Positions 9,301 through 47,645 of a stretch of DNA of 47,855 nucleotides are shown here, one piece after another. A program made the position numbers and the translations under genes. The DNA lies in NCBI GenBank assembly GCA_001791795.1, contig MGFH01000153.1:1-47855 (forward strand), read 5' to 3'. Numbering within the stretch: the stretch's first letter is position 1; every line of letters begins with the position of its first letter. The stretch is from Candidatus Wallbacteria bacterium GWC2_49_35. GTDB lineage: Bacteria > Muiribacteriota > UBA9980. A model generated the notes under the pieces. It saw only the letters and a program-made list of their open reading frames with translations, had not been told where the DNA came from and ran no database searches.

Positions 9301-12300
9301 TGGACCTACTTCACGCTCGAAGGCAACGACTACAGGGAAAACAACGTCCCTAAGTTCCCCGCGGCCATTACCATAGACGCTTCCGGTGCCGGCACGGGAT
9401 TTTATCTGGTCAAAATCGATCTCAACCTGACCGGGTTGACGCTGAGCAACGGCGCTACGCAGGCCGTCATAAAGGCTTTCGACAACCTCGACAACGCCAT
9501 GTCCGGAACCACATACACCATCAACTTCACCGTCGGTCTCAAGGGGCCGCAGGCTGAAAAAAGGGAACCGCAGCCCGACAACGTAAAGGTCAACAGCGCC
9601 AAGATCAAAATAAGGATCTGGAGCGACGACGGACTGGCTATAGACACCCTCAGCGTAGATCTGAAAGTGTCCGGTCCGCCTCCTACGAATAACGTAATCT
9701 ACCAGAAAATCGGCTGCAACCAGACCGAACTGGTTTACGACGTGCCGACGCAAATATTGACCTTCGATCCGACGAAAACCTCTCCGGCTACGACGTTCGA
9801 ACAGGGAACCATCACAGTCCTTCTCAACGACGTAAAAGATTCGGAGGGCAATCAGCTCAGGTCACGCCCGCTGACATGGACCTTCGTCTTCGACAGCGTA
9901 GGGCCGGCCGCCGGCACCGATACGGTCCCCGCCAAAGACGCGTGGACCAACAATAACAAGCAGATAGTAAAAATGAAAGTGTCCGATGTTACCACGAAGG
10001 TTGTCGGCACATCGATAAAGTTCAAGGTCGACGGAAATATTTATACGACCTCCTCGCTCGGAATGAATTACGACCCGACGACGGCATGGATAACTTTCGA
10101 CCCGACCACGCAGGCGGTGACATTCGCCGATAAAGTGATCAACGTCGAGCTTGTCGAGGCGTTCGACGAAGCCGGCAACCCGCTCACCGCCGGCGCCAAC
10201 AACACCTGGTCGTTCAAGGTCGACTCGACGCCCCCAGTGGCCGCGAACTTCGACCCGCCCGACAAAGCCATACGAAACATAAACACCCTGCCGATAAAAT
10301 GCAGGCTGACGGACACTTTTTCAGGTATAGACACAAATTCCGTGACTTTCAAGATCAACGGAACGCAGATAACCACCTATACCATAGCCGGCGACGGAAC
10401 GCTCAGCTATAACGCTACGCTGCCGATCGGCGTGAACACTTGCGAAGTGAGCGTAAAAGACATCGCTACCAACACTCTCGCCGTCACCCCCGCCGTATGG
10501 ACCTTTACAATCGACAACGGAAGAATGCAGGTCATAAACGACGCGACCTCCCCCGATCCGGCTGACAATTCATATACCAACACCGCCAAAAACAATTTTA
10601 CGCTGAAAATGACTAAAACCTCATCCGGCCTCGACACCGCCTCCGTCACCTTCGACGTTCTGCACGGCATTCCCGAAGCCACCATACTGGGTGTCGTCAC
10701 GGCGGAAGAAAAGAGCGACCATTATCTGCTTAAATGGACGTCCAGCGCGGGCGACTTCCTCGAAGGTCCCGTCAAAATAAGCATGACCAAGTGCCAGAAC
10801 CTGGCCGGCTGGAATTTCCTGAACGCTCCTTTCAACTGGAAATTCACTTACGATAAAACCAAACCTTTCGCGACCATCGATGCGCAATCGCCGTCGCCTG
10901 CGCCGAACACCATCCAGACCAACAATAAGGTGCCGATCACTTTAAAACTTGACGACGCGCTGGCCGGGGTAGACCCCGCTTCGATAACGCTTTCCATAGC
11001 TCCCGGAGGCCAGGCGCCCCCTGGTGCGGACTACACGACCGCAGACCCGCAGATGAATTATGACGCGATCAATAAAATATTGACGTTCACCACGACCAAC
11101 GCCTACCCGGACGGCACTCTGACCGTCACATTAAAAACGACCAAAGACAAGGCTACCAATACTTACGACACCGTTCCGGCGAGCTCGATACCATACACAT
11201 GGGCGTTCTCGATAGACACGCAGCTGCCGGTATGCCTTATCACAAGGCCGCCGAACGACAACGACATAGTCCTGATGAACGACGATTACATAACCGCAAC
11301 GCTGGGCGACCCTCAGGGCATCAATACAGGCGAAATAAAAATCACGATAGTGTCTTCAGTGGACAACACACTGGAAAACATGCTCCCCGTGACGCCGCCT
11401 TATTTCACCTTCACGCCAGACAGCTCGACCAGCGGCACTCTCAAATACGATCCCAAACTTAAAACGCCGGCTCTGAAATTCTCGGACGCGGTCATCGACG
11501 TTTACGTTTACGCGAAAGACAACGCCGGCTTCGCGATAGTACCCAACCCCATCCACCGCGTCTATAAGGTCGACACCACCGGCCCCGTCATGATCGACGG
11601 CTCGAAACCGCCGGTCGCCGATTCGCGCGTCCCCGCGCCGGCCACAACCGTCGGCGTAAGCGCGACCAAGCCACTGCAGATAAAATGCCGCCTCGAAGAT
11701 ATGCCGGGCGGCGTAAAAAGCGATTCAATAACCTACAAATTCACGACGACCGACGCCGGCGGAAACGTTCTCACCGACACTCTTACGCCGCTTAACGTCG
11801 TCAATATAAGCCCGACGGTGGTCGAGATCACCTACACCATACCGAACGCCAATCTCACCGCGGGGGCCATACCCGACGTGTGCACATGTGAAATGGAGAT
11901 CCTGACGGCCACCGACCTGACCACCGCGCTGCATCCGCTTCAGGCTAAAACCACCAACAAGTGGTCGTTCTTCATAAATAACAGCAACCCCATCGCCATA
12001 AACCCTTATCCGGCGCACAACTCCGTCATCACCTCGAGCTCCGAAGAAGTAGGCCTCACGGTATTCCACGCATTCGGAATAAACACGACCTCTATCGAAT
12101 TTTATTATAACAACGTCCAGGCGCTCTTCCCGAGCAGCCCCGGAAGTTATATCTTCAATTACGACGACCCGACATCGAAGCTGAGTTTCAAACCGCTCGG
12201 AACCGCGACCTCGCAGTGGGTCGAAGGCACCAACACCGTCGAATTGAGGCACGCCAAAGAGAAGATCAGCGGAAAAGATATCGCCAATCCAGTGATCTGG

Positions 12301-15300
12301 TCGTTCTTATGCGACACCGTGCCGCCGCTGGCGTCTATGAACTATCCAAACACGCAGTACGTAACGACACAGAGCATAGATATTCTGATCAACCTTTCCG
12401 ACGCTACGAGCGGCATAGACCCGGCCACCGTGACGTTTGAAATCAAAAAGCAGGGCGAGACCGATTTTTCGGCGTTCTATCTGACGCCGGGCTCCGCGCT
12501 TACCTACGCCGGCAACGTTCTGAAATATTCAAGCGGCCAGCCTTACCAGGCGGGCACTCACGAGATCAGGCTCGCCCGCGCGAAAGACAGGGCCGGCCAC
12601 AATTACGCGACCGCGCCGTATCCTCCGGGCGGGCCGCTGCCGCTCACCTTCACTTTCAACGTGGTGAAGGACGGCCCCGTCGCGTCCATAATCCAGCCGC
12701 TGCCAAACGCCGTGGTTGATTACAACCTGGTCCCGGGCAGCGACGAAATAGTCATTAAGATCGAACCGCCCGCGGGCTCTCCGGGCGTGGACCCGACGTC
12801 GATCGAACTCGAGCTCACCGAGGGCACCAACCCCGCGCGCCTGGTCAAGGTCATAGCCGGCAGCGGTCTTACCTACAACGCGACCACCAAACTGCTTTCA
12901 TACAGGTACACCAACGTCGTGCCGCCGCTGCCGATCCCCGAAGGAAAGGTCAAGGCCAAACTCAACAAGGCCCTCGATTATCTCGGCAAGCCTTACGCAT
13001 CGAGCCCGAACCCTCTGACGTGGACCTTCATCTTTGACACGGTGGCGCCGAAACTGGTCGAATCGACCATTAACCCGATACCGAACAAGTATGCCCTCAC
13101 CGGCACGCAGGAAATCACCATGCGCCTGGATGACGGCCCCTTCGGCTCGGGCTTCGACACCGCCTCGATCCAGATCGAAGTTAAATACTATCCCGCAACC
13201 AACCCCGCCAATCAGCAAGTCACGGTCGTAAACGTCGGCACGTTCCTGAAATTCGAGAACAAGCCGCTGGCCGGAGTTACCGGTGATTATCTGCTCAGCT
13301 TCATACCGAGCCCGGGATACGCCGAAGGCACGGTCGACGTGAAACTCATCTCAGGCAAAGACCTCGCGGGACATCAGTACGTTTCAGACCCTTCGAATTC
13401 ATTCCCGTACTCATACAGATTCACGGTCGATCTGAATTCGCCCAAACTGCCGGACGATCTTGTCCAGCCAGGGCATATCGCGGTCGTACGCTACACGAAA
13501 AACAATATGCTGCCCATAATAATGCGCCTCGAAGACGGACACGGCTCGCAGGTCGACCCGAGTTCGATACAGCTTACCGTCGGGCCTAAAACATATAAAA
13601 TAGGCACGGACCCCAACCTCACCTACGTCACCGACGCCAACTCGCTGACGCTGACATTCAATCCGGCGACGCCTTACGGCGAAGGGACCGTCGACGTTTC
13701 GCTCGACGTCTGCAAAGATTTCGCCGGCCGCAGCGCGCTCGGCTTCCCGTCGAACGCGGCGACACCCTACAGGTTCGCCTTCGTGTGCGACACGGTAAAA
13801 CCGTCGCCGCAAAATCCAGTTCCGATGAATAATTCTTTCACTTCCGATAACACGAGCTTCATCTCGCTGCAGCTTAAAGACTTTACCAGCGGGGTAAACC
13901 AGTACACCATCACGGTGCGCGACAAGAACAGCAACGTTCTTCCGCTGATGCCGACGGCCACCACTTATAACCCGTCAACCTACGTTTTACGCACCCGCAC
14001 CCAGAACCCTTTGCCGGAAGGCACGGTTTCGGTCGAAGTGTGGTGCCAGGACAGGGCAACCAACGAAATAGAATCGTCGGAAATGCCTGCCCGCTACCGC
14101 TGGAGTTTCCTGGTAAGCATAGGCGGCCCGACGGTCGATATGACGAAGCCGTCGCCGGCGACGAACCCGAAATTCCCGCGCGTGAACGACAATCTGCAGA
14201 AGCTCGAATTCGTTTTCAACGATAACGGCGTCGCGCTCGAAGAGGCCAGCATAGCGCTCACGATACAGTATCCCGACGCGACCATACTGACCTTCAGGCT
14301 CAGCCAGCCGAATTATCTAACATACGACGCGCTCAACAAAAAAGTGACGTTCAATCCGGGCTCTAACAATCCCGCGGCCAATCCGCCCATAATGTACAAG
14401 GAAGGCACCATAAGCGTCAATATAGCAGCGAACAATCTGAGCGGCTTCCCCGTCGCCGGAAACGCCAACTGGCAGTTCCAGGTAGATTCGAAAGGCCCCT
14501 ACGTGATTCCCGGTACGCCCATGCCCGTGCCCAATTCGACCACGGGCAACCCGCAGGCATTGCTCAAATTAAAGATAAAAGACGACCTCGGCGTAATCGA
14601 TCCGGCCGAAATTTTATTCAGGATAGACAACACCGGCCTCACGGGCGGCTTCATAGACAATATAACGCTGTCGACGCTCGGGCCGGGCGGTCTTACACCG
14701 CTGACATTCAATCCCGCCGATGGCGAGATCGTGTTCGACCCCGCGAAAATGAATATCAATTTCGCCAGCGAAGTTACAGCCACGCTGAAACGCGCTAAGG
14801 ACGATCTCGGCAACGGCCTTTCGGGCGGCTCCTTCGCCTGGAAGTTCACCATCAACGCAACGTCGCCATGGGCCGATAATCCGACCATAAATAAAGTAAT
14901 CGGCGGCATCACGGGGCCCTCGATACCCGCAGGCGGCGCAAAGATAAATTCGACGCGCTTTATAACTTCAATGGAAATATACCCGCAGCAGGCCTCCGCG
15001 ACCATAAATAAAAACACGATCAAGATAAAGGTCGGCGGGACCGAATACTCTTATCTCGAGCCGGCCATGATGTTCACGCCGGTCGCCGGGCAGAATTACG
15101 GAATTCTCACTTTCGACACTGGAAAACTTGCGCCCGCGCCTTCAGTGCCTTCGAACGATTCGCTCGAAATATCGCTGACCGCCGTACAGAACAGCCTCGG
15201 CACCAATCTGGCCGCGCCTTATAAGTTCACCATAATCATCGATACGGCCGCTCCCACGATAGGCATCGAAAACCCCGCCGATAAGAGCATAATCACCAAC

Positions 15301-18300
15301 GCCAGGTCCATACTTTCGATAGAGCTGTTAGATCCGCCGGCGCACCGTATCGACACGTCGTCGATAGAATTCACCGTAAACGGCATACTGTTCAATTCGA
15401 CGACAGGCGGGCTCAGTTACAACCCCGTCACGCACAAGGCCGAACTGAACCCTATTACGGTAAACGTGCCGGCTAATTATTCCTACAAGCAGGGCAACAA
15501 TAACGTGTCGCTCACCAACGCGCGCGACGAGGCCGGAAACCCGATCGCCGGGCCGAAATCGTGGTCGTTCTTCGTCGATGACACCGGGCCGGTCGCGTTT
15601 TTAAGCACGGCGACGCCCGCGCCCAACACAGTCACCGGCGATCCCGGAGCGCTCATCGGAATAAAAGTGACCTCGGCCGGCACTAAGATCAATCCGGCCA
15701 CGTTCCTGGTCAATATCGTCAACCATACGACCAATCTTGGCGACATAGCCGGAACGGACGAAGTGCGCGGCATATCTTATAACGAGACCAGCGGCTTCTA
15801 TACCATAAACCCGGCTCTCCATCCTCTGCTGCACTTCAATAACGGCACGATAAGCGTCACGCTGAAAAAGGTCGAGAACCTGGCGGGCAATCAGCTTCAG
15901 AACCCCGTCAACTGGCAGTATTATCTCGACCGCATCGGCCCCGTCGCGCTCCGAAACTCGAAGACCATTGGTCTTCCCGACGGCCTGCCGGCGAGCTCGA
16001 TGACATCGAGCAGGACTCAGAAAGCGATATTCGAGATCGCCGACGACAACAATATATCGCTCATCGACGTCGCTTCGCTTAAAATGCAGCTGGTTTACGG
16101 CGGCTCAACAATCGAGGTCGGCGCATACAGCCCAGGATGCGAATACTCCGTTTCGCTGGGACGTTTCACCTACGATCCGTCGAAGCTCCAGCCGCCCGTT
16201 CAATATCCGGACGGCACGGTCGCCGTCATTCTCTCGCAGGCTAAAGACATACTGGGCAACAATCTCAGGCCGCACCTGCTGAACTCGTTCTTCTTCATAG
16301 TCAACACGCGCGGACCGAACGCCTCGAACCCGGCGCCGCTTCCAAACGAGGTCGTGTCCAGCCAGTATCCGAAGATATCTTTCGACCTGACCGCGGAACC
16401 TCCCGCGAGCATAGTCATGACCAACGAACGCCCAATAGAGCTCAGAGTGAACGGCGTGCTCTATTCAAGCAAGTCCATTCCAACGCCGGTAGTGAAGGCC
16501 GGAAACCGCGTGATCTTCGATCCGGCGCTCATAGGCCTTCAGTTCGGCTCCTCACAGATAACTTTCGAGATAGTCTCCGCGTTCGACTCGCTCGGCAACT
16601 CTCTGAGGCCTTCGACCGACCCGCGCATAGGCTCTTCAAACAGCTGGATCTTCAAAAACGACGTGACGCCGCCTTCGATCAGCGCGCCGACGCCGGCCCA
16701 CCAGAGCGTCGTCGGAAACCCCGCACCCGTAATTTCGGCCACCATTAAAGATAATCTTTCGGCCGTCAATAAAAATACCATAAAACTCAAAATAAACGGA
16801 GGAGCCGAAATAGATTCTTCGAAGATCTCATTCGATTCCTCGAGCGGCAGGATGAGCTGCGACCTTTCGCAGGCCGGCATCGCCGACAGGCTCGCCGCCG
16901 GTGACAACATCATCAGGATAACCGACGTGCGCGACTCTCTCGGTAACGCCATACCCGTTCCTTACGCATGGAACGTTTACCTCGACAGTCAGCCGCCCGA
17001 AGTGACGGCGGGTTCCGAGCGCCCTGTAAACGGCTCGAAGGGCAATATTTTAAGGCCCGTTATCTCATTTTCCGTCGCCGACAACCCTAAAATAGCCTAC
17101 GGCGTCGCCTACTACGGCGACGTTAACCGCAACTCCATAAAGGTCAGGATAACCAACGGCAACACCGACCGCATCGTAAAATACGGCGACATAGGCTTCT
17201 ACTACGCGAAACCGGCGGTCACTATCGATACCGCCCTTCTAGGCTTCAATCTGGTCGACGGGCTCTGCGAAGTGTCCGTGCTCGGTGAGGCGGGTGGAGC
17301 GACAAACGCCATGGCGGATGTTTTCGGCAACAAGATGGTCTCCGATTACACATTCTCGTTCACGGTCGTATCGAGCGGCCCCTATGTCTACGGCGTTCCG
17401 ACGCCGGCTCCTTCGAGCTCGGTGACCAACAACAAACCGCTCATCAAAATTAACCTGCGCTCCGACAAATCTACTATCAGGCCCGTCACGATAAAACTCA
17501 TGGTCGACGGCGTAACGTATACCACCGCGTCACCGGCGATGACCTACGCTGGCGACGAAGTGCGCTTCAACCCCGCCGACGCGGGCATAACGCTGCGCGA
17601 AGGCTCGATCGAAGTTAAACTGGCCGAGGCCGAAGACGAGCTCGGCAACAAGCTCGCCGCCGACACTTCGGGTATAAATCCCTGGACCTTCAGGGTCGAT
17701 ACGGCCGGTCCGACGGCGAAGGTCGGCGCAAACCTCATCAGCGACGATCTTCCGACCACCATGCTGATAACGGCCCAGCCGAGCGAAGCGCTCACGGGCA
17801 CGCCCTCGCTGAAGGCCACCTACGGCGACGGAACCGTCTCCTACCTGAACGTGACGGACACTTACGGCGACCAGAAATACTTCTCGGGAGCGCTCGAGCT
17901 CGCCTCGATCCCGAAATCGCCGGTGACGTTCACTTTCATCGGCACCGACGCAAACGGCGTATATTCCGAAACGCCCATAACCAATTTCAGCCTGTCGAAA
18001 ACATCTATAATGTCGCCGGTAACTTTCAAAAATCAGAAATATTACCTGGTCGGCCTGCCGGTCGCGCCCGACAACACATCAATATCTAACGTATTCACCG
18101 GGCTTCCGTCCGCCGGCTACACCATATGGGAAGGCGCCGATTCCAACAGGCAGATCGCCTATTACATGTTGCCCGGAAAGGCTTACTGGCTGCTCAATTC
18201 GTCCGGAGGCGACTTCAACGTGTCGGCCAACGGCTACGAAATGAGCGTTCCGATGCAGAAATTCGACATCAACCTCAGGGCCGGCTGGAACCTGGTATCA

Positions 18301-20538
18301 TTTCCTTACAACAGCCGCGTCAAGCTCAACCAGTGCACCATCAAGAGCGAGCAGGGCGAGGTTTCGATGTTCGCTTCCGACAACGTGTACACGGAGCGGG
18401 CGATGTGGTCTTACGATTACGATACGAGCGGGTCGCCGACCTTCTCGCTCAACCACTACGACGCGCACATCACCCCGTTCACCGGCTATTACATTTACGC
18501 CTACGCGGAATGCTCGCTGCGCGTGCCGCCGGTGTTCGTGACCAACGACGAGGTCAATAAATATCCTCTTCCGCCTTACGGCATGACGCTCACCGGCTCG
18601 GGGCTCGCGACGGAGCGCAGCCTGTGGTGCCGCCTCGGCGTTTCGTGCGACGGGTACCGCGACGAATATAACTACTTCGGCTTGAAGGACGGCGCGCAGG
18701 ACATAATAGAAAAAGACTGCGACCTGATGGAACCGCCCGTCAATCCAGTCGGCCAGGGGGCTTATCTTTCGGCCTACCTTGGCGAAGGCACCGCCGTCAA
18801 ATACTGCTCCGATTTCAGAAACACCCTCGCTGCACGCAAAAAATGGAACTTCGCCGTCAAAACCAATTTGAGCGGTAAAACCGCCGTCATGACGTGGCAG
18901 ACCCTTCGCGACAGGCTTCCTTACAACTACGACCTTATACTTTACGACCGCCTGAGCGGCGGCACCGTGAACATGCGCACGGCCTCGTCGTACCAGTTCA
19001 GCGCGGCTTCGACCGGCGAACGCCTGTTCTCGATAATCTTCAATCCCATAAACGCCTCGGGCGAAGGCGGCGGAACATCCGACACGACCAGGCCATCCAT
19101 AATATCGCGTTTGCCCTATGAAAATCAGCAGAGCGTGCCGGTTTCAAACTCTGTCTATCTGAGGTTCGACGAAAAACTCAACCCCGCCTCAGTCCAGAAT
19201 TCGATTACGCTCAGCAATTTATCGTCCGGCGGACTGGTTCGCGGCGTCACATATTACGACGAATCCATCAACGAGGTCACTTTCAAACCCGAAAACAATC
19301 TGGATTCGAATACCACCTACAGGGTGAGCGTCAACAACATAACCGACGCAGCCGGCAACTTCATGACGAAATCCGAATGGATGTTCTCCAGCGCAAAAGT
19401 TTCCGCGACCGAGCAAAACGTAAAAATAACTGTCAAAAAAGGCTGGAATCTCATTTCAGTCCCCGTATATCCGAAAGCTAAGAGCATCGGCGAAATCTTC
19501 TCCGGCATGAGCTCGAAGTTCGTTTTATATAACAGGAAGGGCAACCAGCTGTCGGTCTATAACGGCGTAGAGGCGTTCACGCCTTTCGTAATAGGCCCTG
19601 GAAACGGCTACTGGCTCTATTCTCACTCCGATTCCGACGTCGCGCTGAATATAGCCGGATACGCCGTGCCGGTCGACTCGTCGAGCGACACTCACTTCGA
19701 AATACCTCTTACGAAAGGCTTCAACCAGATAGGCGTGCCGTTCAACATCGGCGACGCCGAAACCATAGCCATAGCCGGCTTCGGTTTCAGGCTCAGAAGT
19801 TCCGCTTCGCCCGTCAACGTCACGGCCGCGATCGGTAACGGATATATCAGAAATACCTTATATACTTTCACCAAGCTCGGCATTTCCGGCCAGATAAACC
19901 CGCTTTCGTTCACCGACGTTAGCGCGAAACTGAGAAACGCCGAAGGATTTTTCGTTTACAGCAACCAGGACGACGTCGTGCTCAGGATACCGCGGCCAGG
20001 CGTAACTTCGCCCGCGCCCGCGGACAGAGGCGCGTCTAAAAAGTCGGCCGTGAAATTAAATATCGACCCGCTCAGAAGCTGGAAGGTCAAACTCGGGGTA
20101 ACGAGCCCGAAGATCGGATATCAGGATTCCGCCAACTATTTCGGCGTCGACTACGTGGCAGAGGACGGCCTTGACGCATGCGACGTTCTGAAGCTGATAT
20201 CGCCTGATCCCTGTCTGGCGTTGTATTTCGTTAAAGAAACGCCCGGCGGAAAATACACGCTGGCATCGGACATCAGGGCTTCCTCCACGCCGGTTTCGGC
20301 GGCAGGCGGCGGGCACAACGCTCTCAGATGGCGGTTTACGGTCGCATCCAGAGGCCTCGACTACGCCGACGGAAAGATCGTCTGGGACAGGTCGGCCCTT
20401 CCATCTTCCGGCGGGCTGGTCCTCGTTGACAGGCTGCAAAACACTGAAACCGACATGCGTTCGCGCGACGGCTACCCCGTCATAATCGACGGCGCCGCCC
20501 GCGAATTTGAAATAATATATACTCCGGAGATGAGATAA
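6358..20538 (+). CDS. Giant exported protein with FG-GAP propeller and about 25 Ig-like repeats
   Basis: 4726 residues; ATG start with AAGGAG at 6341-6346. Residues 1-31 form a signal peptide (basic MLKNRR, long hydrophobic core, small residues near RAF). Residues about 70-575 contain integrin-like FG-GAP repeats with calcium-type loops such as DFDNDGVND, GDVTGDSVDD and GDINGDGFDD. An FN3-like domain lies near 581-690. From about 690 to 3780 there are about 25 Ig-like units of 100-130 residues, each ending in a W-x-F-x-x-D-x-x-x-P junction and often containing DxAGNP-like strands. The C-terminal region (3880-4726) has two modules with GWNLVSFP/GWNLISVP motifs and GKAYWL/GNGYWLY, separated by one SbsA-type Ig domain (about 4241-4345). 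No membrane anchor or sortase motif is visible. A surface adhesin or structural role is inferred. Its stop codon abuts the ATG of the lipoprotein gene, so the two are probably co-expressed and may function together. Confidence 0.88.
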   Translation: MLKNRRFAYLCLSVLIFSLSVIIFSPDPGRAFQYTGASTNTAPSANSVKIITPNSLTPITFAQAPTTCDWFCAGGRTLVADFDNDGVNDVIVASPYGEYNFSDQLAGMVMIYKGPVASGGTYSWDSGNWDAAPNTTATGYILGANVKEHTGFAIAAGNFGSRALVIGRPYETGTPSEVAVIFTRAIANLNGNATRIKPNMIDMKQMGDATQTLGKNDMKNFSLLIKNIPGANAPAVGGIYPHNSIGAASGMSLACGDVTGDSVDDIIIGCPNDGGTAGAVYIIKGKTNWKDNDSNTAPLEIDVTTMTAADGYKITGVNAGDFFGASLLVSNIYGDSRGELIIGATGAQAKGGVVIIPGGTIDSWNVLTYSIGLIAEAKGVISPSGSNGLRMGHALATGKFHDSGAANNDLIVTEFADADNATAAYVIFGNATLPAANPIPVDVTIKSNKTTERFGFSVSCGDINGDGFDDIAIGAPKGGIDATTGRGKAYVIHGMAYISGSELDLANAAGRPFMNSTFQTQGNYGRINTGDTNYFFGYGAAIGNVGGPNARAELIVSCYSETPTTTGVFTNAGYQGSTYVLFTSACPAKPSTNQLASPSSNGNQTVTWSNFSDPEGDTMKYYHVQFSRDATFQDFAQIVDSGVISVAANTTQHTENLTIDGTYHYRVRVGDDYSFSQFSDVKQVVINKNPPSDVTDITPINGQDVVALGGQRQIKIRVTDDTMCETQVTAEIWIKSQDDANANDVWDAGEGGTTIATPITVVGAITDYSFNVTEGLAKDSIRIFITGWDSAKNVIPEAVGGSRANPKIIYQIHSNKGPIVSAWRINPRTGFKKYTNDNNAKFVNDPQPIITANLTDDDSVVTNIKLKVQGTEYGVGPQLNYVDPGLTFTPSTDLVNGSLPVELTSADDGYGNPVQPITTTTGFVIDRTGPSAVEANCQPVNGGASDKPKPTIVFALNEFASGVVGCGVKDSLEIKIFNNNKWTYFTLEGNDYRENNVPKFPAAITIDASGAGTGFYLVKIDLNLTGLTLSNGATQAVIKAFDNLDNAMSGTTYTINFTVGLKGPQAEKREPQPDNVKVNSAKIKIRIWSDDGLAIDTLSVDLKVSGPPPTNNVIYQKIGCNQTELVYDVPTQILTFDPTKTSPATTFEQGTITVLLNDVKDSEGNQLRSRPLTWTFVFDSVGPAAGTDTVPAKDAWTNNNKQIVKMKVSDVTTKVVGTSIKFKVDGNIYTTSSLGMNYDPTTAWITFDPTTQAVTFADKVINVELVEAFDEAGNPLTAGANNTWSFKVDSTPPVAANFDPPDKAIRNINTLPIKCRLTDTFSGIDTNSVTFKINGTQITTYTIAGDGTLSYNATLPIGVNTCEVSVKDIATNTLAVTPAVWTFTIDNGRMQVINDATSPDPADNSYTNTAKNNFTLKMTKTSSGLDTASVTFDVLHGIPEATILGVVTAEEKSDHYLLKWTSSAGDFLEGPVKISMTKCQNLAGWNFLNAPFNWKFTYDKTKPFATIDAQSPSPAPNTIQTNNKVPITLKLDDALAGVDPASITLSIAPGGQAPPGADYTTADPQMNYDAINKILTFTTTNAYPDGTLTVTLKTTKDKATNTYDTVPASSIPYTWAFSIDTQLPVCLITRPPNDNDIVLMNDDYITATLGDPQGINTGEIKITIVSSVDNTLENMLPVTPPYFTFTPDSSTSGTLKYDPKLKTPALKFSDAVIDVYVYAKDNAGFAIVPNPIHRVYKVDTTGPVMIDGSKPPVADSRVPAPATTVGVSATKPLQIKCRLEDMPGGVKSDSITYKFTTTDAGGNVLTDTLTPLNVVNISPTVVEITYTIPNANLTAGAIPDVCTCEMEILTATDLTTALHPLQAKTTNKWSFFINNSNPIAINPYPAHNSVITSSSEEVGLTVFHAFGINTTSIEFYYNNVQALFPSSPGSYIFNYDDPTSKLSFKPLGTATSQWVEGTNTVELRHAKEKISGKDIANPVIWSFLCDTVPPLASMNYPNTQYVTTQSIDILINLSDATSGIDPATVTFEIKKQGETDFSAFYLTPGSALTYAGNVLKYSSGQPYQAGTHEIRLARAKDRAGHNYATAPYPPGGPLPLTFTFNVVKDGPVASIIQPLPNAVVDYNLVPGSDEIVIKIEPPAGSPGVDPTSIELELTEGTNPARLVKVIAGSGLTYNATTKLLSYRYTNVVPPLPIPEGKVKAKLNKALDYLGKPYASSPNPLTWTFIFDTVAPKLVESTINPIPNKYALTGTQEITMRLDDGPFGSGFDTASIQIEVKYYPATNPANQQVTVVNVGTFLKFENKPLAGVTGDYLLSFIPSPGYAEGTVDVKLISGKDLAGHQYVSDPSNSFPYSYRFTVDLNSPKLPDDLVQPGHIAVVRYTKNNMLPIIMRLEDGHGSQVDPSSIQLTVGPKTYKIGTDPNLTYVTDANSLTLTFNPATPYGEGTVDVSLDVCKDFAGRSALGFPSNAATPYRFAFVCDTVKPSPQNPVPMNNSFTSDNTSFISLQLKDFTSGVNQYTITVRDKNSNVLPLMPTATTYNPSTYVLRTRTQNPLPEGTVSVEVWCQDRATNEIESSEMPARYRWSFLVSIGGPTVDMTKPSPATNPKFPRVNDNLQKLEFVFNDNGVALEEASIALTIQYPDATILTFRLSQPNYLTYDALNKKVTFNPGSNNPAANPPIMYKEGTISVNIAANNLSGFPVAGNANWQFQVDSKGPYVIPGTPMPVPNSTTGNPQALLKLKIKDDLGVIDPAEILFRIDNTGLTGGFIDNITLSTLGPGGLTPLTFNPADGEIVFDPAKMNINFASEVTATLKRAKDDLGNGLSGGSFAWKFTINATSPWADNPTINKVIGGITGPSIPAGGAKINSTRFITSMEIYPQQASATINKNTIKIKVGGTEYSYLEPAMMFTPVAGQNYGILTFDTGKLAPAPSVPSNDSLEISLTAVQNSLGTNLAAPYKFTIIIDTAAPTIGIENPADKSIITNARSILSIELLDPPAHRIDTSSIEFTVNGILFNSTTGGLSYNPVTHKAELNPITVNVPANYSYKQGNNNVSLTNARDEAGNPIAGPKSWSFFVDDTGPVAFLSTATPAPNTVTGDPGALIGIKVTSAGTKINPATFLVNIVNHTTNLGDIAGTDEVRGISYNETSGFYTINPALHPLLHFNNGTISVTLKKVENLAGNQLQNPVNWQYYLDRIGPVALRNSKTIGLPDGLPASSMTSSRTQKAIFEIADDNNISLIDVASLKMQLVYGGSTIEVGAYSPGCEYSVSLGRFTYDPSKLQPPVQYPDGTVAVILSQAKDILGNNLRPHLLNSFFFIVNTRGPNASNPAPLPNEVVSSQYPKISFDLTAEPPASIVMTNERPIELRVNGVLYSSKSIPTPVVKAGNRVIFDPALIGLQFGSSQITFEIVSAFDSLGNSLRPSTDPRIGSSNSWIFKNDVTPPSISAPTPAHQSVVGNPAPVISATIKDNLSAVNKNTIKLKINGGAEIDSSKISFDSSSGRMSCDLSQAGIADRLAAGDNIIRITDVRDSLGNAIPVPYAWNVYLDSQPPEVTAGSERPVNGSKGNILRPVISFSVADNPKIAYGVAYYGDVNRNSIKVRITNGNTDRIVKYGDIGFYYAKPAVTIDTALLGFNLVDGLCEVSVLGEAGGATNAMADVFGNKMVSDYTFSFTVVSSGPYVYGVPTPAPSSSVTNNKPLIKINLRSDKSTIRPVTIKLMVDGVTYTTASPAMTYAGDEVRFNPADAGITLREGSIEVKLAEAEDELGNKLAADTSGINPWTFRVDTAGPTAKVGANLISDDLPTTMLITAQPSEALTGTPSLKATYGDGTVSYLNVTDTYGDQKYFSGALELASIPKSPVTFTFIGTDANGVYSETPITNFSLSKTSIMSPVTFKNQKYYLVGLPVAPDNTSISNVFTGLPSAGYTIWEGADSNRQIAYYMLPGKAYWLLNSSGGDFNVSANGYEMSVPMQKFDINLRAGWNLVSFPYNSRVKLNQCTIKSEQGEVSMFASDNVYTERAMWSYDYDTSGSPTFSLNHYDAHITPFTGYYIYAYAECSLRVPPVFVTNDEVNKYPLPPYGMTLTGSGLATERSLWCRLGVSCDGYRDEYNYFGLKDGAQDIIEKDCDLMEPPVNPVGQGAYLSAYLGEGTAVKYCSDFRNTLAARKKWNFAVKTNLSGKTAVMTWQTLRDRLPYNYDLILYDRLSGGTVNMRTASSYQFSAASTGERLFSIIFNPINASGEGGGTSDTTRPSIISRLPYENQQSVPVSNSVYLRFDEKLNPASVQNSITLSNLSSGGLVRGVTYYDESINEVTFKPENNLDSNTTYRVSVNNITDAAGNFMTKSEWMFSSAKVSATEQNVKITVKKGWNLISVPVYPKAKSIGEIFSGMSSKFVLYNRKGNQLSVYNGVEAFTPFVIGPGNGYWLYSHSDSDVALNIAGYAVPVDSSSDTHFEIPLTKGFNQIGVPFNIGDAETIAIAGFGFRLRSSASPVNVTAAIGNGYIRNTLYTFTKLGISGQINPLSFTDVSAKLRNAEGFFVYSNQDDVVLRIPRPGVTSPAPADRGASKKSAVKLNIDPLRSWKVKLGVTSPKIGYQDSANYFGVDYVAEDGLDACDVLKLISPDPCLALYFVKETPGGKYTLASDIRASSTPVSAAGGGHNALRWRFTVASRGLDYADGKIVWDRSALPSSGGLVLVDRLQNTETDMRSRDGYPVIIDGAAREFEIIYTPEMR

Positions 20539-30988: not shown

Positions 30989-31004
30989 TGGCATACTATA
31001 TGCT
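30989..31004 (+). promoter_or_regulatory. Sigma54-type (-24/-12) promoter candidate for the SPOR-domain gene
   Basis: TGGCAT-N5-ATGCT has GG and GC exactly 10 bases apart, as required for sigma54, and keeps most consensus bases. The start is predicted near 31015, with a leader of about 208 bases. No sigma70-type promoter was seen between here and the gene. Confidence 0.55.
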
Positions 31005-31222: not shown

Positions 31223-32008
31223 ATGAGATTTTTCGCATTATTTTTAATATTATTCATTATCGTGTTCATTTTTAATTACAATATCGGCTCCGCCTTCGCC
31301 AGCGCTTCCAATTCGCCTGACGCCTGGTCCAACGGCATCACCGACGCCGCCATCGAAAACCTTCCAGACGCCGATTCCCCTTATACCATTGAATGCGGCC
31401 CTTTTAAAAACCGCGAAAGCGCAAGGCCGGTAATCTACTCTCTGGCAGGCGAGCTTCAGACGCCCGGTTATTTCCATCTGATCCGCAAGGCAGAAGAAAC
31501 CCCACAGGACAATATTTTAGCGGTACGAGTCGGCAAATTCTCCAGCCTCGAGGAAGCGCAGGAAAAACTCGGCGGAGTGCAAAAGGCGCAATCTTATCCC
31601 AATCTCAAGATCGTATGCGCCGCGAACGGCAGCGACGAAATTAAAGACCTTGTCATGCTCGACGTTTTATACGAAGAATACGACGAAGGTTCTCGCTATA
31701 CCGGTCGTCTCGTCCTGGCATGCACCCCCGAGATACCTCATTCAGTCAAAAATTTCATAAATTACTCGTCCGAAAAAAACGAAGTGAGAATACCCATACA
31801 CCTCACCAGAATATCTTCCAACGCCAACGCCGCGATCAAACGCATCAGAAATCAGCAGCACCAGCTAATAAAAGACATCGACGTTGAATTCGACGAGCAG
31901 TTCGGCTGCCATGTGCTGATATTCAAAATGAAACGCAGGATCGAAATCGCCAGGATCAGCCAGTACGCGCCGATCATCGCTATCGATTTCGAAAAAATGC
32001 CCAACTGA
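31223..32008 (+). CDS. Exported SPOR-domain-like protein
   Basis: 261 residues; CAGGAGAC precedes the ATG. A signal peptide covers about 1-27 (hydrophobic run, then SAFASA). Residues about 52-135 resemble a SPOR domain, with the two half-repeats YTIECGPFKNRESA and LAVRVGKFSSLEEAQEKL and a terminal strand LKIVCA. SPOR domains bind denuded peptidoglycan, so a periplasmic cell-wall role is likely. Residues 150-261 are a separate beta-rich domain (AMIN-like in strand pattern, weak call). It stands alone behind a sigma54-type promoter and a long structured leader, which suggests conditional expression. Confidence 0.75.
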   Translation: MRFFALFLILFIIVFIFNYNIGSAFASASNSPDAWSNGITDAAIENLPDADSPYTIECGPFKNRESARPVIYSLAGELQTPGYFHLIRKAEETPQDNILAVRVGKFSSLEEAQEKLGGVQKAQSYPNLKIVCAANGSDEIKDLVMLDVLYEEYDEGSRYTGRLVLACTPEIPHSVKNFINYSSEKNEVRIPIHLTRISSNANAAIKRIRNQQHQLIKDIDVEFDEQFGCHVLIFKMKRRIEIARISQYAPIIAIDFEKMPN

Positions 32009-41019: not shown

Positions 41020-42507
41020 TTATTTTATTTTTTCATTGAACAGCTGCGGTTTGTATTTGTCTCTGAGATATTTCTGGAAAGCGTCGCGCGCCGCCATCTG
41101 TTTTTCCCGCTTCAGCGAGTTCTCTATTTTCGGCGTTTCTTCGGCGAGTTCGCGCTGTTTGCCTTCTATCTTGTCGGTGACCTTTATTATGTGGAAGCCG
41201 AACTGCGTCTTGACTACAGGTGTCATTTCGCCTTTTTTGGCCGCGAAGGCCGCGGTCTCGAATTCCTTCACCATCATGCCGCGCCCGAAAAGTCCGAGAT
41301 CGCCGCCTTTTTCCTTCGAAGGACAGCTTGATTCGGCTTTTGCGAGTTCTTCGAAGTTAGCGCCTTCCTTGAGTTTCTTTTCGATCTCCTTCGCCTTTTC
41401 TTCGCTCGCTACGAGTATATGCGAAGCCTTAACCTGGTCGTCACGGAAGCTGGCCTTGTTATCCTCGTAATATTTCTTAACGGCGTCGGGGCTGACCTCG
41501 ATATTTTTAAATACTTCGCTGTCGATAAAAAGTCTTTTTTTCTGCATATTTTTGATCTTTTCGAGCTCGTTTTTGACCTTTTCGTTCTTGTCGGGAGCGT
41601 ATCCGTTCTTGACCGCGTAATCTGAAAGCAAGTGGGCCTTGAGGAGGTTATCGGCTATCATGGCGCAGTATTCGGGGCTTTCGAGATTATGAACCGACTT
41701 GTTCTGGCTGACTATCTTGTCGGTGTCGAACGCTTTTTTCAGATCGCCGAGCGTGATGCTCGCGAATTTGGTGTCGTAAATCGAAATCGCGAGTTCGCTC
41801 GAATCGAGCTTCGCTATGTCTTTTATCTTCGCAAGGCCCGCTTCGTTGGTCTTCACTTCATATTCTTTAGCGGTGTCGAGCCAGTATTTCATGAGGTATT
41901 CCTCGAGTCTTTTATTTTTCAGTTCTTCGTTTATAGCCTGCTTGACGTTGTCGAATTCGGCCGTTTTGAACTGAGTTTCTTTGTTCTTATCGTAAAAATC
42001 TTTAATTTCCTGCTCGCTTACTTCGACTTTGTGGTTCTGTATCTTTTCGGTCATATAAAAGTGAAGTATGACGCGCTTTTCGATCTCGGACATGACCTGT
42101 TTGAACTGCTCGTTGTCGTCGAATTTCTTCTCGGCGATCTCCATTTCGAGCATTTTATCGTCGACCATCTGTTCTAAAAATCTTTCTTTGTCGGCTTTTT
42201 TTATAGTATTGCGCGGAACGTAAGGCGGTATCTGCTCGTCGAGCTTCGCGTTGAAATCTTTGCCTTTGATCTCGTCAGTTCCTACCTTCGCGAGAACTTC
42301 TTCGGGGGCGATCGTGACTATTTCGGCCGTAGAGGCCATTGCGGGACCTTCGGCGTCGGTCACGTTGAATTTCATGTTATCGACGTTGACCTCCTGTGAA
42401 GCGCCGACTTCGGTCGTCGAGCCGTCAGCGGCCTCCGAGCGGGCCGGAAGGGACATCGATATAAGTACCATTGAAGCGATTAAAAGGCTTAATTTTACAA
42501 GATCCAT
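41020..42507 (-). CDS. Periplasmic parvulin-type peptidyl-prolyl isomerase (SurA/PrsA-like)
   Basis: 495 residues; AAGGAG lies five bases before the ATG. The signal peptide covers about 1-27 (hydrophobic core, then ARSEA). Charged helical chaperone-type segments follow (about 60-330), resembling SurA N-terminal and linker regions. One rotamase domain occupies about 355-450, with the family motifs [26 protein letters not shown] and [10 protein letters not shown]. It helps proteins fold after export, consistent with the many large exported proteins in the window. Length is between single-domain PrsA and two-domain SurA. A strong sigma70-type promoter precedes it. Confidence 0.93.
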
Positions 42508-42539: not shown

Positions 42540-42568
42540 ATTATATTTGTAAACATCTTAAAAGTCAA
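42540..42568 (-). promoter_or_regulatory. Sigma70-type promoter of the foldase gene
   Basis: On the minus strand, -35 TTGACT (42568-42563, 5 of 6), 17-bp spacer, and perfect -10 TATAAT (42545-42540). The start is near 42533, giving a leader of about 26 bases. Confidence 0.88.
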
Positions 42569-42642: not shown

Positions 42643-42675
42643 AAAAAAATAAAAAAGGGCATTAAAAAAATGCCC
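42643..42675 (-). terminator. Terminator after the small exported protein genes
   Basis: On the minus strand GGGCAT pairs with ATGCCC around an A/T loop, followed by TTTTTTATTTTTTT. It lies 39 bases past the stop of the 154-residue protein. Confidence 0.85.
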
Positions 42676-42713
42676 CTCAGCTCAGAAACGTTTATAGTAC
42701 GATTTTTCGCGCT

Positions 42714-43178
42714 TTATTTAACTTTGTTTTCAACCGTGCCCGCCGGGACTTTATCCGGCGCGTTTTTTAAAGCGTTTTCGGCAGTCGCCGGATCGCCGGC
42801 ATTTACAGGCGGCGTTGCCGGCTGTTTATAAATTTCGAAACCGCTCATTAAAATGCCCTTTTTCCTGTCTTCTTTACTGAGCCGGAGCTGTCCGGCTACG
42901 GTAAACTTAAGCGCGCCGTAATCTTTAACCGCCAGTATCTGGTCCACAATGGCCTTCGGGCCTATCAACTTATATTTTTCCCCTTTTTCGTCGACAAGTT
43001 CATAAACGGGCCGCGATTCTTTTTTAACGGTTTTTACCTGGCGCACCGCGCCGACCGCGGTAAATAAAACTTTTCCGTCCGCTACACCGCCGGAAGGCTC
43101 GGCGTAAACATGCGTCAGCGGCACCTGAGCCGCGAACAGTATGAATATTAAAAACGCATGAAAAATTTTAGAGATCAT
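42714..43178 (-). CDS. Small exported protein, OB-like fold suspected
   Basis: 154 residues, ATG with GGGAGGAAGG upstream. A signal peptide covers about 1-26 (ending HVYA). Residues 35-118 contain alternating strands with the pattern Y-E-L-V-D-E-K-G-E-K-Y-K-L-I-G, then a conserved DYGALKFTVAGQL and a closing GFEIYKQ. The same order (L-F-V-A-E-D-G-Q-K-Y, then DYANKTFKVKG) occurs in the next gene, so the two are probably old paralogues; the pattern fits a small beta barrel as in OB-type exported proteins. The C-terminal 30 residues are Pro/Ala-rich. No known function was recognised. It lies 94 bases downstream of its paralogue and probably shares its transcript. Confidence 0.75.
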   Translation of the reverse strand: MISKIFHAFLIFILFAAQVPLTHVYAEPSGGVADGKVLFTAVGAVRQVKTVKKESRPVYELVDEKGEKYKLIGPKAIVDQILAVKDYGALKFTVAGQLRLSKEDRKKGILMSGFEIYKQPATPPVNAGDPATAENALKNAPDKVPAGTVENKVK

Positions 43179-43221
43179 TTTGCCTTCCTCCCCTTGTCCA
43201 GGGTTTTTAGCCTGACCGGCG

Positions 43222-43246
43222 CCCGCTCCGCTTTAAGCGGAACGGG
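43222..43246 (-). repeat. Intergenic hairpin between the two paralogous exported protein genes
   Basis: CCCG-C-TCCGC and GCGGA-A-CGGG pair with one mismatch around a TTTAA loop. No T-run follows on the minus strand, so it is more likely an RNA-stability or partial-attenuation hairpin than a full terminator. Confidence 0.5.
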
Positions 43247-43272
43247 GACCGGCGAAAAGAGATTTAAATTAA

Positions 43273-43842
43273 TTATTTGCCGGTTTCAGCGGGTTTTTCT
43301 TCGGCTTTAGGAGCTTCGACAGCGGGCGTTGCCGGTACTGCCGGCGTCGCGGAAACCGCGGGAGCTTCGGGGGCCTTTACTTCAGCTTTAGGAGCTTCAG
43401 CCGCGGGCGTTGCAGGCGTTGCGGGAGCTTCGGGAGCCTTTACTTCAGCGGGAATGGCGGGCGTGCCGACTTCGCTGAATTCATCTATCTTTAAAGAAGG
43501 ATAGTAGTCTTTTTTGTCTTTGTCTTTCTCAGATACGGGTTTCGAAGTGCCTTTCACTTTGAAGGTTTTGTTAGCGTAATCAGCAACTGCGAATATGCCG
43601 GCTTTTTTGCCTTTACCTTTGATTATGAAATATTTCTGGCCGTCTTCGGCTACGAATAAATGTTTCTCTCTACCTTTTGTGTCTTTTTCGCTGAGGATCT
43701 TGCCGGTGAGTTCTACTGTAACGAAAGCGCCTTTTTTGTCTTTGCCTTTTTCTTCTTTTTTCGCTTCTTCAGCCGCTATAGCAGTAGCAGCGAAATAAAC
43801 CGTGACTAATAACATGAACAATACCGCTAAAATTTTTTTCAT
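43273..43842 (-). CDS. Small exported protein with Ala/Pro/Glu-rich tail
   Basis: 189 residues from ATG 43842; a strong TAGGAGG site lies 11 bases upstream, and a GTG at 43854 overlaps that site and is rejected. The signal peptide covers about 1-23 (ending ATAIAA). A lysine/glutamate-rich stretch follows, then a beta-strand domain (about 45-120) like that of the neighbouring 154-residue protein. Residues about 130-189 are low complexity: repeats of KAPEAPA, ATPA and EAPKAE. Such tails often span the periplasm or cell wall. Function is unknown. It sits behind a consensus sigma54 promoter, so expression is probably triggered by an activator. Confidence 0.8.
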   Translation of the reverse strand: MKKILAVLFMLLVTVYFAATAIAAEEAKKEEKGKDKKGAFVTVELTGKILSEKDTKGREKHLFVAEDGQKYFIIKGKGKKAGIFAVADYANKTFKVKGTSKPVSEKDKDKKDYYPSLKIDEFSEVGTPAIPAEVKAPEAPATPATPAAEAPKAEVKAPEAPAVSATPAVPATPAVEAPKAEEKPAETGK

Positions 43843-43894
43843 TATGGGATACACCTCCTAAAAATTAGCCGCGATGAGCGGCAATAATCAGCAA

Positions 43895-43910
43895 AGCAAT
43901 TTGCGTGCCA
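43895..43910 (-). promoter_or_regulatory. Consensus sigma54 promoter
   Basis: The minus strand reads TGGCACG-CAAA-TTGCT, matching the sigma54 consensus TGGCACG-N4-TTGCW at every position. Start near 43885; the gene begins at 43842, with TAGGAGG between. No competing sigma70-type promoter was seen here. Confidence 0.85.
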
Positions 43911-44020
43911 TGTAACGCGAAAATTCGCCCGGTCCGCGGATACACAAAAGCCGCCAGCCGTAAAGTTAAAACGTCTGATCGTTTCAGCTCCGCAAAATTT
44001 ATGCAATAAAAATATCGCTA

Positions 44021-44040
44021 AGTGATAAAAAATTATCACT
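44021..44040. promoter_or_regulatory. Palindrome upstream of the sigma54 promoter
   Basis: AGTGATAA and TTATCACT form a perfect 8-bp inverted repeat around AAAA, about 145 bp upstream of the predicted sigma54 start. It could be an activator-binding site. It also lies 17 bases after the stop of the TPR gene and is followed on the minus strand by a partly T-rich tract, so it may instead be a terminator, or serve both roles. Confidence 0.45.
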
Positions 44041-45164: not shown

Positions 45165-47645
45165 TTACAGCGGCTCCTTTACCCAGTAAGTGAATTTTTT
45201 CGAAACGCTTACGAAAAAATCGTCCTCGGTTTTCATCTCATGAAAAAGCGGATCGTATTCTATGACCGTGTTTTTCGGGAAAGCGGCCAGATTGAGGTGG
45301 TCCGCCGCGAGATTGCCTTTTATCTTCAGGCTGTTCGCGCCGCCGGACCCCGAAGCGGGGCCGCTCACGAACGAAATGAGGTTTTTATCGGGATTATAGA
45401 ACGGATGCAGCGCGACGAGCGAAGCGTTTATTTCGAGATTGTCGCCGGTTATGGCGATGGTGCCCCAGCTCGAATAAAGGCAGAGCAGGTCGGTCGGGCC
45501 GGCCTTGGCGATGCGCGTGCCGATGTATATGTGACGCGGCAGCGGAACCATGCCCGAAGTGTCAGGCGCGACCGTTATGGTGCCGCAGCCTTTATAGACG
45601 AAAGGCGCCCCCATGAGATGAAGGTCGCTTTTGACGATAACGTTTCCGTGCAGATTCAAAAAATTCACGGTCGTTCCGCCTATGATAGCCTTCGAGACGC
45701 TCTTTTTAAAAAATTCAGTCTCGTTGTCGTATATGACGGCGTTTTTACTTGATATTACCGGCGTGAGCTCCTCGTAGCCGCGCGGCGGCGGAATGAGCGT
45801 CTGAACGGCCTCGGGCGCCGCGAGAGGCACTTTCACGGCCGCCGGCACGCCCATATTGTAGGGCCTGACAACGACCTCCGAGTTGTAGTCGATGTTAGAG
45901 CTGCCGGCCGCCGTCTGGAACGGTCTTCCAATGGTCTTTCCACCTTCCTCGCGAATGACGGTGGCGCCGGTTATGTATATCGCCGAAAGCTGCGCATCGG
46001 TGTACATGGTGTCTAAAAACAGCAGGAACGCCTTGAAATCGACCGCGGGAAGGTTTTTTTGCACGGTGTCCTTCGGAACTGTTTTAAACATGGCCGGTAT
46101 AACGAAATTGATGTTATAGGTCTTGCTGGCCGGCGCCGGCAGAACGATCTCCATCGCGAGCGTCGAAAGGCTGGAATACCTCTGCCAGACATTGCCTTCG
46201 ACCAGGCCGAACTGGCGCGCGCCGGGCGCGCCGAAAATGTCGATCCCTCGCCTTGCGGTGTCGGTGCTGTGATTGTAATGGATGAACGTCTTCCGGGCGA
46301 TCTTCGCGGACGAAGAAACATCGGTGGCGGGCGCGTCCTGGTCGTTGAGCTGGTCGCAATTTACCCATTTATAGGCGCTCGACGGCTTCATTACAGTGTC
46401 GGCGAAAAGGAGCATCGAGCCGAGATAATTCGACGTGTGCGCGCCGAAGACCCACTCTTCCTTTGCCAGCTCGTCGAGGTCGGACATGTTCTTAAGCGAC
46501 GTCTTCGGCTCGGCGTCGGCATTCGCCGGCTTGGATTTCGCGTAAGGCGCAGAGGTGTTCTTGCCGTATATATATTGCGGATTGAAGCCGCAGTTCTTCT
46601 TCTTGAATAAAAAGACGGTGTTATTGGTGAGTTCGGTCCACGCCGCATCGGTCAGCGGGTTGCTCGTGTCGTAAAACAGGCTGCGGTAAAGCGCCTCGAG
46701 CTCCTTCGCGGGCATCTTCGGATCGCTTCCGGCCTTGGTGGCCGATTTCGAGTTCGGGCCCCATATCTTGTTAACGGCGCCGGCGGCAGGCCATACTTCG
46801 TCCATCATGTCGGTGTCTTTATCGGAAAGGTTGATTATCATCTTTTTGTCCGAATCCATCGGGCCGCCGAAAAGCACCCGCCCCGCCGGCAGGCTGGCTT
46901 CCGGCTGCGAATTGATCTTAAGGTAGCGGTCTTTCGGGTTATATCCTTCGTGCGAGCCGGGAAGGCTTTTATACGCCGAAGGGTAGCCGGCGTTACCCGC
47001 CGACGAATATTCTCCCCAGGCGTCTTTTATGAACAGGGCGTAGTTATTCAGGAACGGGTTCCTGGCGTGAACCACTTTGAAGTCTCTGCGGGCCCTCAGC
47101 GATGCGCCCGTTTCCATGAATTCGGATATACATTTGAACTCGATCGAGCCGCACTTTTCAATATCGCGGAACGATTCGGCGTTTCCGCCCAGATCGTAAA
47201 ATTTATCGACGGCTGATAAAGTGGCCCTCAGTTCCTTTATTTTGGCGCCACGGTCCTTGAACTGCAGCAGCAGAGACTTCACGCCCGGAAGGTCGCGCAG
47301 GTCCTGCGTCAGTCCCTCCGAAGCGCCCACGCCCTTGCGCAGGCTGGAATACCAGAAGTTCTTGCCAGCGTTGTAATTCACGTCGTTCATTTCGTTGTTC
47401 ACGTGCAGAATAGCCAGCTGCATTGCCGCTTCGGCCAGGTTCATGGCGGAGCTTGCGAAGAATAGTTTGTGCGCCTGGCGCGAGCGCGTCTGGGCGTTGT
47501 AGATATGCTGGAAGGCGTAAAAAGCGACCAGGAAAAGCACTATCAAAACCAGCAGCAGTATCGAAAACCCGCGCCGGTTTTCAAAATATTGAAAAATACG
47601 GGACGGCAAGCCGCTTCTTTTGCCGCTGGTCTTTAAAATTTTCAT
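45165..47645 (-). CDS. Large pseudopilin-like (PilX/GspK-type) protein
   Basis: 826 residues. The N-terminus has a basic leader of 26 residues ending RRG, then FSILLLVLIVLFLVAF and a long amphipathic helix with SSAMNLAEAAMQLA. This matches a type III (prepilin peptidase) signal with cleavage at G26/F27. The usual Glu at mature position 5 is Leu, as in tip-type minor pseudopilins of the GspK kind. The remaining 750 residues are a large beta-rich region of unknown fold, much longer than typical PilX or GspK. No other pilus or type II secretion genes are in the window. The Shine-Dalgarno is weak (GGCGG). A TPR gene follows in the same operon. Confidence 0.75.
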   Translation of the reverse strand: MKILKTSGKRSGLPSRIFQYFENRRGFSILLLVLIVLFLVAFYAFQHIYNAQTRSRQAHKLFFASSAMNLAEAAMQLAILHVNNEMNDVNYNAGKNFWYSSLRKGVGASEGLTQDLRDLPGVKSLLLQFKDRGAKIKELRATLSAVDKFYDLGGNAESFRDIEKCGSIEFKCISEFMETGASLRARRDFKVVHARNPFLNNYALFIKDAWGEYSSAGNAGYPSAYKSLPGSHEGYNPKDRYLKINSQPEASLPAGRVLFGGPMDSDKKMIINLSDKDTDMMDEVWPAAGAVNKIWGPNSKSATKAGSDPKMPAKELEALYRSLFYDTSNPLTDAAWTELTNNTVFLFKKKNCGFNPQYIYGKNTSAPYAKSKPANADAEPKTSLKNMSDLDELAKEEWVFGAHTSNYLGSMLLFADTVMKPSSAYKWVNCDQLNDQDAPATDVSSSAKIARKTFIHYNHSTDTARRGIDIFGAPGARQFGLVEGNVWQRYSSLSTLAMEIVLPAPASKTYNINFVIPAMFKTVPKDTVQKNLPAVDFKAFLLFLDTMYTDAQLSAIYITGATVIREEGGKTIGRPFQTAAGSSNIDYNSEVVVRPYNMGVPAAVKVPLAAPEAVQTLIPPPRGYEELTPVISSKNAVIYDNETEFFKKSVSKAIIGGTTVNFLNLHGNVIVKSDLHLMGAPFVYKGCGTITVAPDTSGMVPLPRHIYIGTRIAKAGPTDLLCLYSSWGTIAITGDNLEINASLVALHPFYNPDKNLISFVSGPASGSGGANSLKIKGNLAADHLNLAAFPKNTVIEYDPLFHEMKTEDDFFVSVSKKFTYWVKEPL

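Follow-up and report, generated by a model that had tools for sequence, protein, structure and literature searches.

A predicted sigma54 promoter with a conserved upstream block precedes genes for two small exported proteins in Candidatus Wallbacteria bacterium GWC2_49_35 and its sister species

In the phage-shock response, sigma54 and a dedicated activator (PspF, acting on pspA) drive an envelope-related operon. Sigma54 promoters with remote enhancer-binding proteins (EBPs) have been mapped in Desulfovibrio vulgaris (PMC4641369) and in Clostridiales (PMC6615313), and among the activator sites that these surveys describe are inverted repeats, one of them palindromic and AT-rich. Control over the exterior of the bacterial cell has also been ascribed to sigma54 (Francke et al. 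2011, PMC3162934, as cited in PMC4551910). Among exported proteins, the BOF family (YgiW, Vibrio cholerae SipA; PF04076) consists of small periplasmic OB-fold proteins with stress-responsive expression (PMC6370654).

The locus described here lies in a window of 47,855 nucleotides, the whole stretch of DNA that was analysed, from a draft genome of 3.67 Mb that is 77% complete. The comparison set comprises four species of one genus (this genome, G000, and the sister species G001–G003), which represent about three independent lineages. The -24/-12 elements in front of the first gene, p1 (tGGcacg / tTGCt), are like those of D. vulgaris (PMC4641369). As in the D. vulgaris and Clostridiales surveys, the upstream site contains an inverted repeat (one of the D. 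vulgaris sites is AT-rich), and conservation across species serves as evidence (PMC4641369, PMC6615313). Unlike those systems, the locus belongs to an uncharacterised genus, the gene of the proposed activator is not adjacent to its target, and the upstream block consists of two tandem AT-rich dyads unmatched to a described EBP motif. The logic of sigma54 and activator is also that of the phage-shock response, whereas the products p1 and p2 are small exported proteins that are not PspA-like. Exported or surface products under sigma54 agree with the theme of Francke et al. (PMC3162934) as it is cited, of which p1-p2 would be only a new instance. The type of switch is well known and its mechanism classical; the protein family is outside Pfam and NCBIfam. 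The features of the locus are as follows.

44021 to 44040, no strand assigned: inverted repeat AGTGATAA-AAAA-TTATCACT with 8-bp arms, the first dyad of the block
44003 to 44018, no strand assigned: second dyad, imperfect, GCAATAAAAATATCGC, its centre 20 bp from that of the first
44004 to 44039, minus strand: conserved 36-bp upstream block from the four-species comparison, proposed activator (UAS) site
43895 to 43910, minus strand: predicted sigma54 promoter TGGCACGCAAATTGCT (-24 GG / -12 GC), exact consensus, kept in 4 of 4 species
43843 to 43884, minus strand: predicted 5' leader of 42 nt with an AGGAGG Shine-Dalgarno sequence, its +1 near 43884 placed from the -12 element
43868 to 43882, minus strand: 5'-terminal hairpin GCCGC-UCAUC-GCGGC, which folds in 4 of 4 species
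43273 to 43842, minus strand: p1, a 189-aa exported protein (by sequence) with orthologues in G001–G003
43215 to 43253, minus strand: hairpin between p1 and p2, a strong fold (region z -3.35)
42714 to 43178, minus strand: p2, a 154-aa exported relative of p1 (by profile and sequence similarity), second gene of the operon
42654 to 42678, minus strand: intrinsic terminator of the p1-p2 unit, with terminator-like sequence likewise placed in G001 and G002
42540 to 42568, minus strand: sigma70 promoter of the next gene, TTGACT-17-TATAAT (11 of 12 matches), with an equivalent in the sister species
41020 to 42507: gene of a PpiC-type peptidyl-prolyl isomerase, downstream of p2

The sequence TGGCACGCAAATTGCT has no mismatch to the sigma54 -24/-12 consensus and keeps the fixed spacing of the elements; judged by dinucleotide shuffles of the window, an exact match is expected 0.005 times per window. 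Taking the C of TTGC at 43896 as -12 puts the predicted +1 near 43884, and AGGAGG and then the ATG of p1 (43842) follow at normal distance 3' of the site. The claim of an earlier note on this DNA, that a promoter with the sigma54 consensus at all fixed positions is correctly placed before a Shine-Dalgarno sequence and an ATG, is thus borne out, with 43884 in place of its 43885 as the expected start. The p1 orthologues in G001–G003 have the site at equal position (TGGCATGTAAATTGCT, TGGCATGCAAATTGCT and TGGCATATAAATTGCT).

The predicted leader is highly conserved in the four species, and its 5' hairpin keeps its pairing despite sequence changes (GCCGC/GCGGC, GUCGC/GCGGC and GCCGCC/GGCGGU). Both the order of p1 and p2 and the position of the hairpin between them are the same in all four. 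Because a terminator follows p2 and the PpiC-type isomerase has a separate sigma70 promoter, the sigma54 unit is taken to comprise p1 and p2 only, and co-transcription with the isomerase gene was rejected.

Between species the upstream block is 89–97% identical, as against only 51–57% (72% in the closest pair) for the spacer that separates it from the promoter. The longest word common to all four species has 15 nt, compared with 9 nt for the longest in 2000 shuffles, and the consensus across the genus is GTGATAAyTTTTTnTCAy..TAGCGATATTTTTAT, of which the core of the second dyad, TAGCGATATTTTTAT, is invariant. The block is placed 110–133 bp upstream of the promoter. The distances from the centre of the inverted repeat to +1 in the four species are 135, 136, 146 (this genome) and 158 bp, so that the conserved block, at -135 to -158, lies within about 100–200 bp before +1. 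These distances are near whole helical turns, which with three independent lineages is suggestive only (P about 0.11). The 8-bp inverted repeat that the earlier note had singled out at 44021–44040 is indeed perfect here, but a mismatch interrupts it in G001 and G002, and the conserved unit is the 36-bp block, of which the palindrome forms one half.

The genome scans were pattern searches, and in the four genomes they found no other intergenic copy of the block motif. The palindrome scan that had been suggested came out empty in the same sense, and the palindrome was rejected as a regulon-wide motif, the other matches to the block motif in the genus all lying inside coding sequence. Since no other intergenic copy of the motif was found in the four genomes, a dedicated activator is the simplest proposal, and we read the block as its candidate site.

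The absence of rpoN, which had been named as grounds for refuting sigma54 control, is not what the genome holds. A single rpoN gene is present and intact, with a product of 536 aa whose DNA-binding domain matches at E=1.2e-61. The genome also has 18 matches to PF00158, of which 14 are strong and represent EBPs; most of the EBPs that were read out show GAFTGA-type loops. None of the EBP genes lies on the contig of p1. Across the phylum, RpoN was found in 35 of 40 genomes.

As had been claimed, the products of the locus are two related small exported proteins: p1 and p2 share 28% identity (E=1e-4), one profile retrieves both, and both start with signal-peptide-like stretches. In p1 a strand-rich core (about residues 41–125) is followed by an Ala/Pro/Glu/Lys tail, and the orthologues in G001–G003 are 76–81% identical to it. 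In all four species the family has three clear members per genome: p1, p2 and, on another contig, p3. The lack of a recognised function that had been noted for these products also holds, in that the family is absent from Pfam and NCBIfam; searches for p1 and p2 in Pfam, in NCBIfam and among PDB sequences gave nothing usable. In the search for named homologues, the one match in the genome collection, from Lachnospiraceae (L034), covers the Ala/Pro/Glu tail alone (residues 125–186) and was discarded as composition. An AlphaFold2 model of p1 from a two-row alignment has five strands in residues 41–125 at a mean pLDDT of 60, and the PDB fold matches of this low-confidence model are led by SSB-type and other OB-fold proteins (E 0.005–0.09). 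With modest confidence we consider the p1 core to be OB-fold-like, which falls short of proof. Small size, a predicted periplasmic location and, if the p1 model holds, an OB-fold would be shared with the BOF family. Unlike that family, the proteins are predicted to be under sigma54 control, p1 has its long Ala/Pro/Glu tail, and the PF04076 (BOF/YgiW) profile matched none of 14 family members at E up to 10. A literature search on sigma54 with periplasmic OB-fold proteins found no paper.

Weaker relatives occur in G013, G018, G023 and G028, which belong to two genera in another family of the phylum. A sigma54 consensus was not found upstream of these four; by eye, the sequences there are sigma70-like, two with TTGACA-like boxes and TAGAAC and the other two with a TATAAT.

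Predicted sigma54 sites at three further places, each present in 4 of 4 species, are solid by their orthologous placement: before p3, where the site in this genome is TGGCATGTAAGTTGCT and the leader is able to fold into a hairpin in G001–G003, before hsp20, and before an RNA upstream of an RNase E/G-like gene. The Hsp20-like small heat-shock gene, assigned by sequence, has the consensus at L020:1501-1516 and at L066, L085 and L094. Enrichment of heat-shock chaperones under sigma54 has been reported in Planctomycetota and Bacteroidota (PMC12316311), so the sigma54-hsp20 link is not new in kind. The RNA, of roughly 95–100 nt, begins at about +1 of its sigma54 site (L059:1395-1491, minus strand of contig C251 in this genome; orthologues L082:1824-1926, L090:1932-2033 and L091:1978-2081). 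It has a near-invariant 5' segment, GUGGCACUUAACGAACCCAAUU, a covarying stem and an intrinsic terminator, and in all four species it lies upstream of the RNase E/G-like gene, a name given from the sequence. It has no convincing Rfam match and was not found elsewhere in the phylum, and we consider it likely to be a new sigma54-driven small RNA.

Several other sites were observed in passing. A sigma54 consensus lies 106 bp before the start codon of a DnaK-like gene in this genome (L025:1501-1516), and the strict scan found none in the sister species. PilA-type and Flp-type pilin genes are preceded by sigma54 sites (L024:1501-1516; L072, L079, L092), in the PilA case with an EBP gene on the same contig (C181). 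Within the window, a second, weaker sigma54-like site, TGGCATACTATATGCT, occupies 30989–31004 (plus strand), about 220 bp before the gene of an exported protein (31223–32008). An open reading frame of 4726 aa at 6358–20538 (plus strand), with stretches that by eye look like repeated Ig-like or FG-GAP-like units, probably encodes a giant surface protein.

A chance match at p1, with transcription in fact starting from a sigma70-type promoter or reading through from upstream, would be in keeping with the background of the strict sigma54 pattern, which in the four genomes gave 49 sites compared with 19 for the reversed control (about 40% background). Single pattern sites are weak evidence because of this ratio, and it is orthologous placement that counts. 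Before p1 the position and sequence of the site are kept in all four species while the surrounding DNA has diverged, and no sigma70-like promoter was found on the p1 strand between p1 and the upstream gene, so that an accidental match is very improbable. A sigma54 promoter could also be combined with a block that is not an activator's site. The block lies 17 bp past the stop codon of the preceding TPR gene and folds as two RNA hairpins in this genome (z -5.1), as might befit the terminator or an RNA hairpin of that gene; a repressor or nucleoid protein could bind there as well. The fold weakens from -15.8 here to between -4.9 and -7.8 kcal/mol in the sister species and changes its shape although the DNA stays 89–97% identical, and the block was not called as a terminator, having no G+C-rich stem with an immediate T-run. 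Unlike the conserved 5' hairpin, the block is kept in sequence beyond pairing and therefore points to protein–DNA binding, and we regard these other roles as distinctly unlikely.

The purpose of the proteins is a separate matter. Instead of serving a stress response, they might be structural or surface proteins whose regulation is shared with pili, considering that pilins of both types in the genus also have sigma54 sites and that the gene two upstream of p1 (45165–47645) has a prepilin-like start. Neither p1 nor p2 has pilin features, and an alignment confined to the sigma54 sites of p3 and hsp20 revealed no upstream block in common with p1. A role alongside pili is somewhat unlikely. The label of an envelope response, suggested by the export signals and the kind of regulation, is a plausible hypothesis.

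Sigma54 control of p1 by a distant activator, as the earlier note had proposed, is strongly supported at the level of sequence by a promoter, an upstream block and a spacing that are kept in four species. We put the probability that this is a functional sigma54 promoter with a remote activator, driving p1-p2, at about 0.85. Under sigma54 control of this kind, RNA polymerase bearing RpoN would wait at 43895–43910, and a dedicated EBP encoded elsewhere would bind as dimers to the two adjacent dyads (44004–44039) about 140 bp upstream, loop over and open the promoter through ATP hydrolysis. The transcript would run from near 43884 to about 42654, would probably be stabilised by its 5' hairpin and efficiently translated, and would yield p1 and p2 as small, presumably secreted proteins. 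Its likely purpose would be to supply more of these periplasmic, probably OB-fold proteins once the activator senses its signal.

More tentatively, it is possible that a genus-specific sigma54 circuit with an undescribed activator motif captured three genes, at two separate loci, that encode exported proteins of one OB-fold-like family; distant members of that family elsewhere in the phylum would be expressed from promoters of the sigma70 type. The genus gains a well-supported predicted sigma54 target with a candidate activator site of footprint grade, and a family outside Pfam and NCBIfam is now tied to what would be activator-controlled expression at two loci. What this genus senses through its EBPs becomes a testable question.
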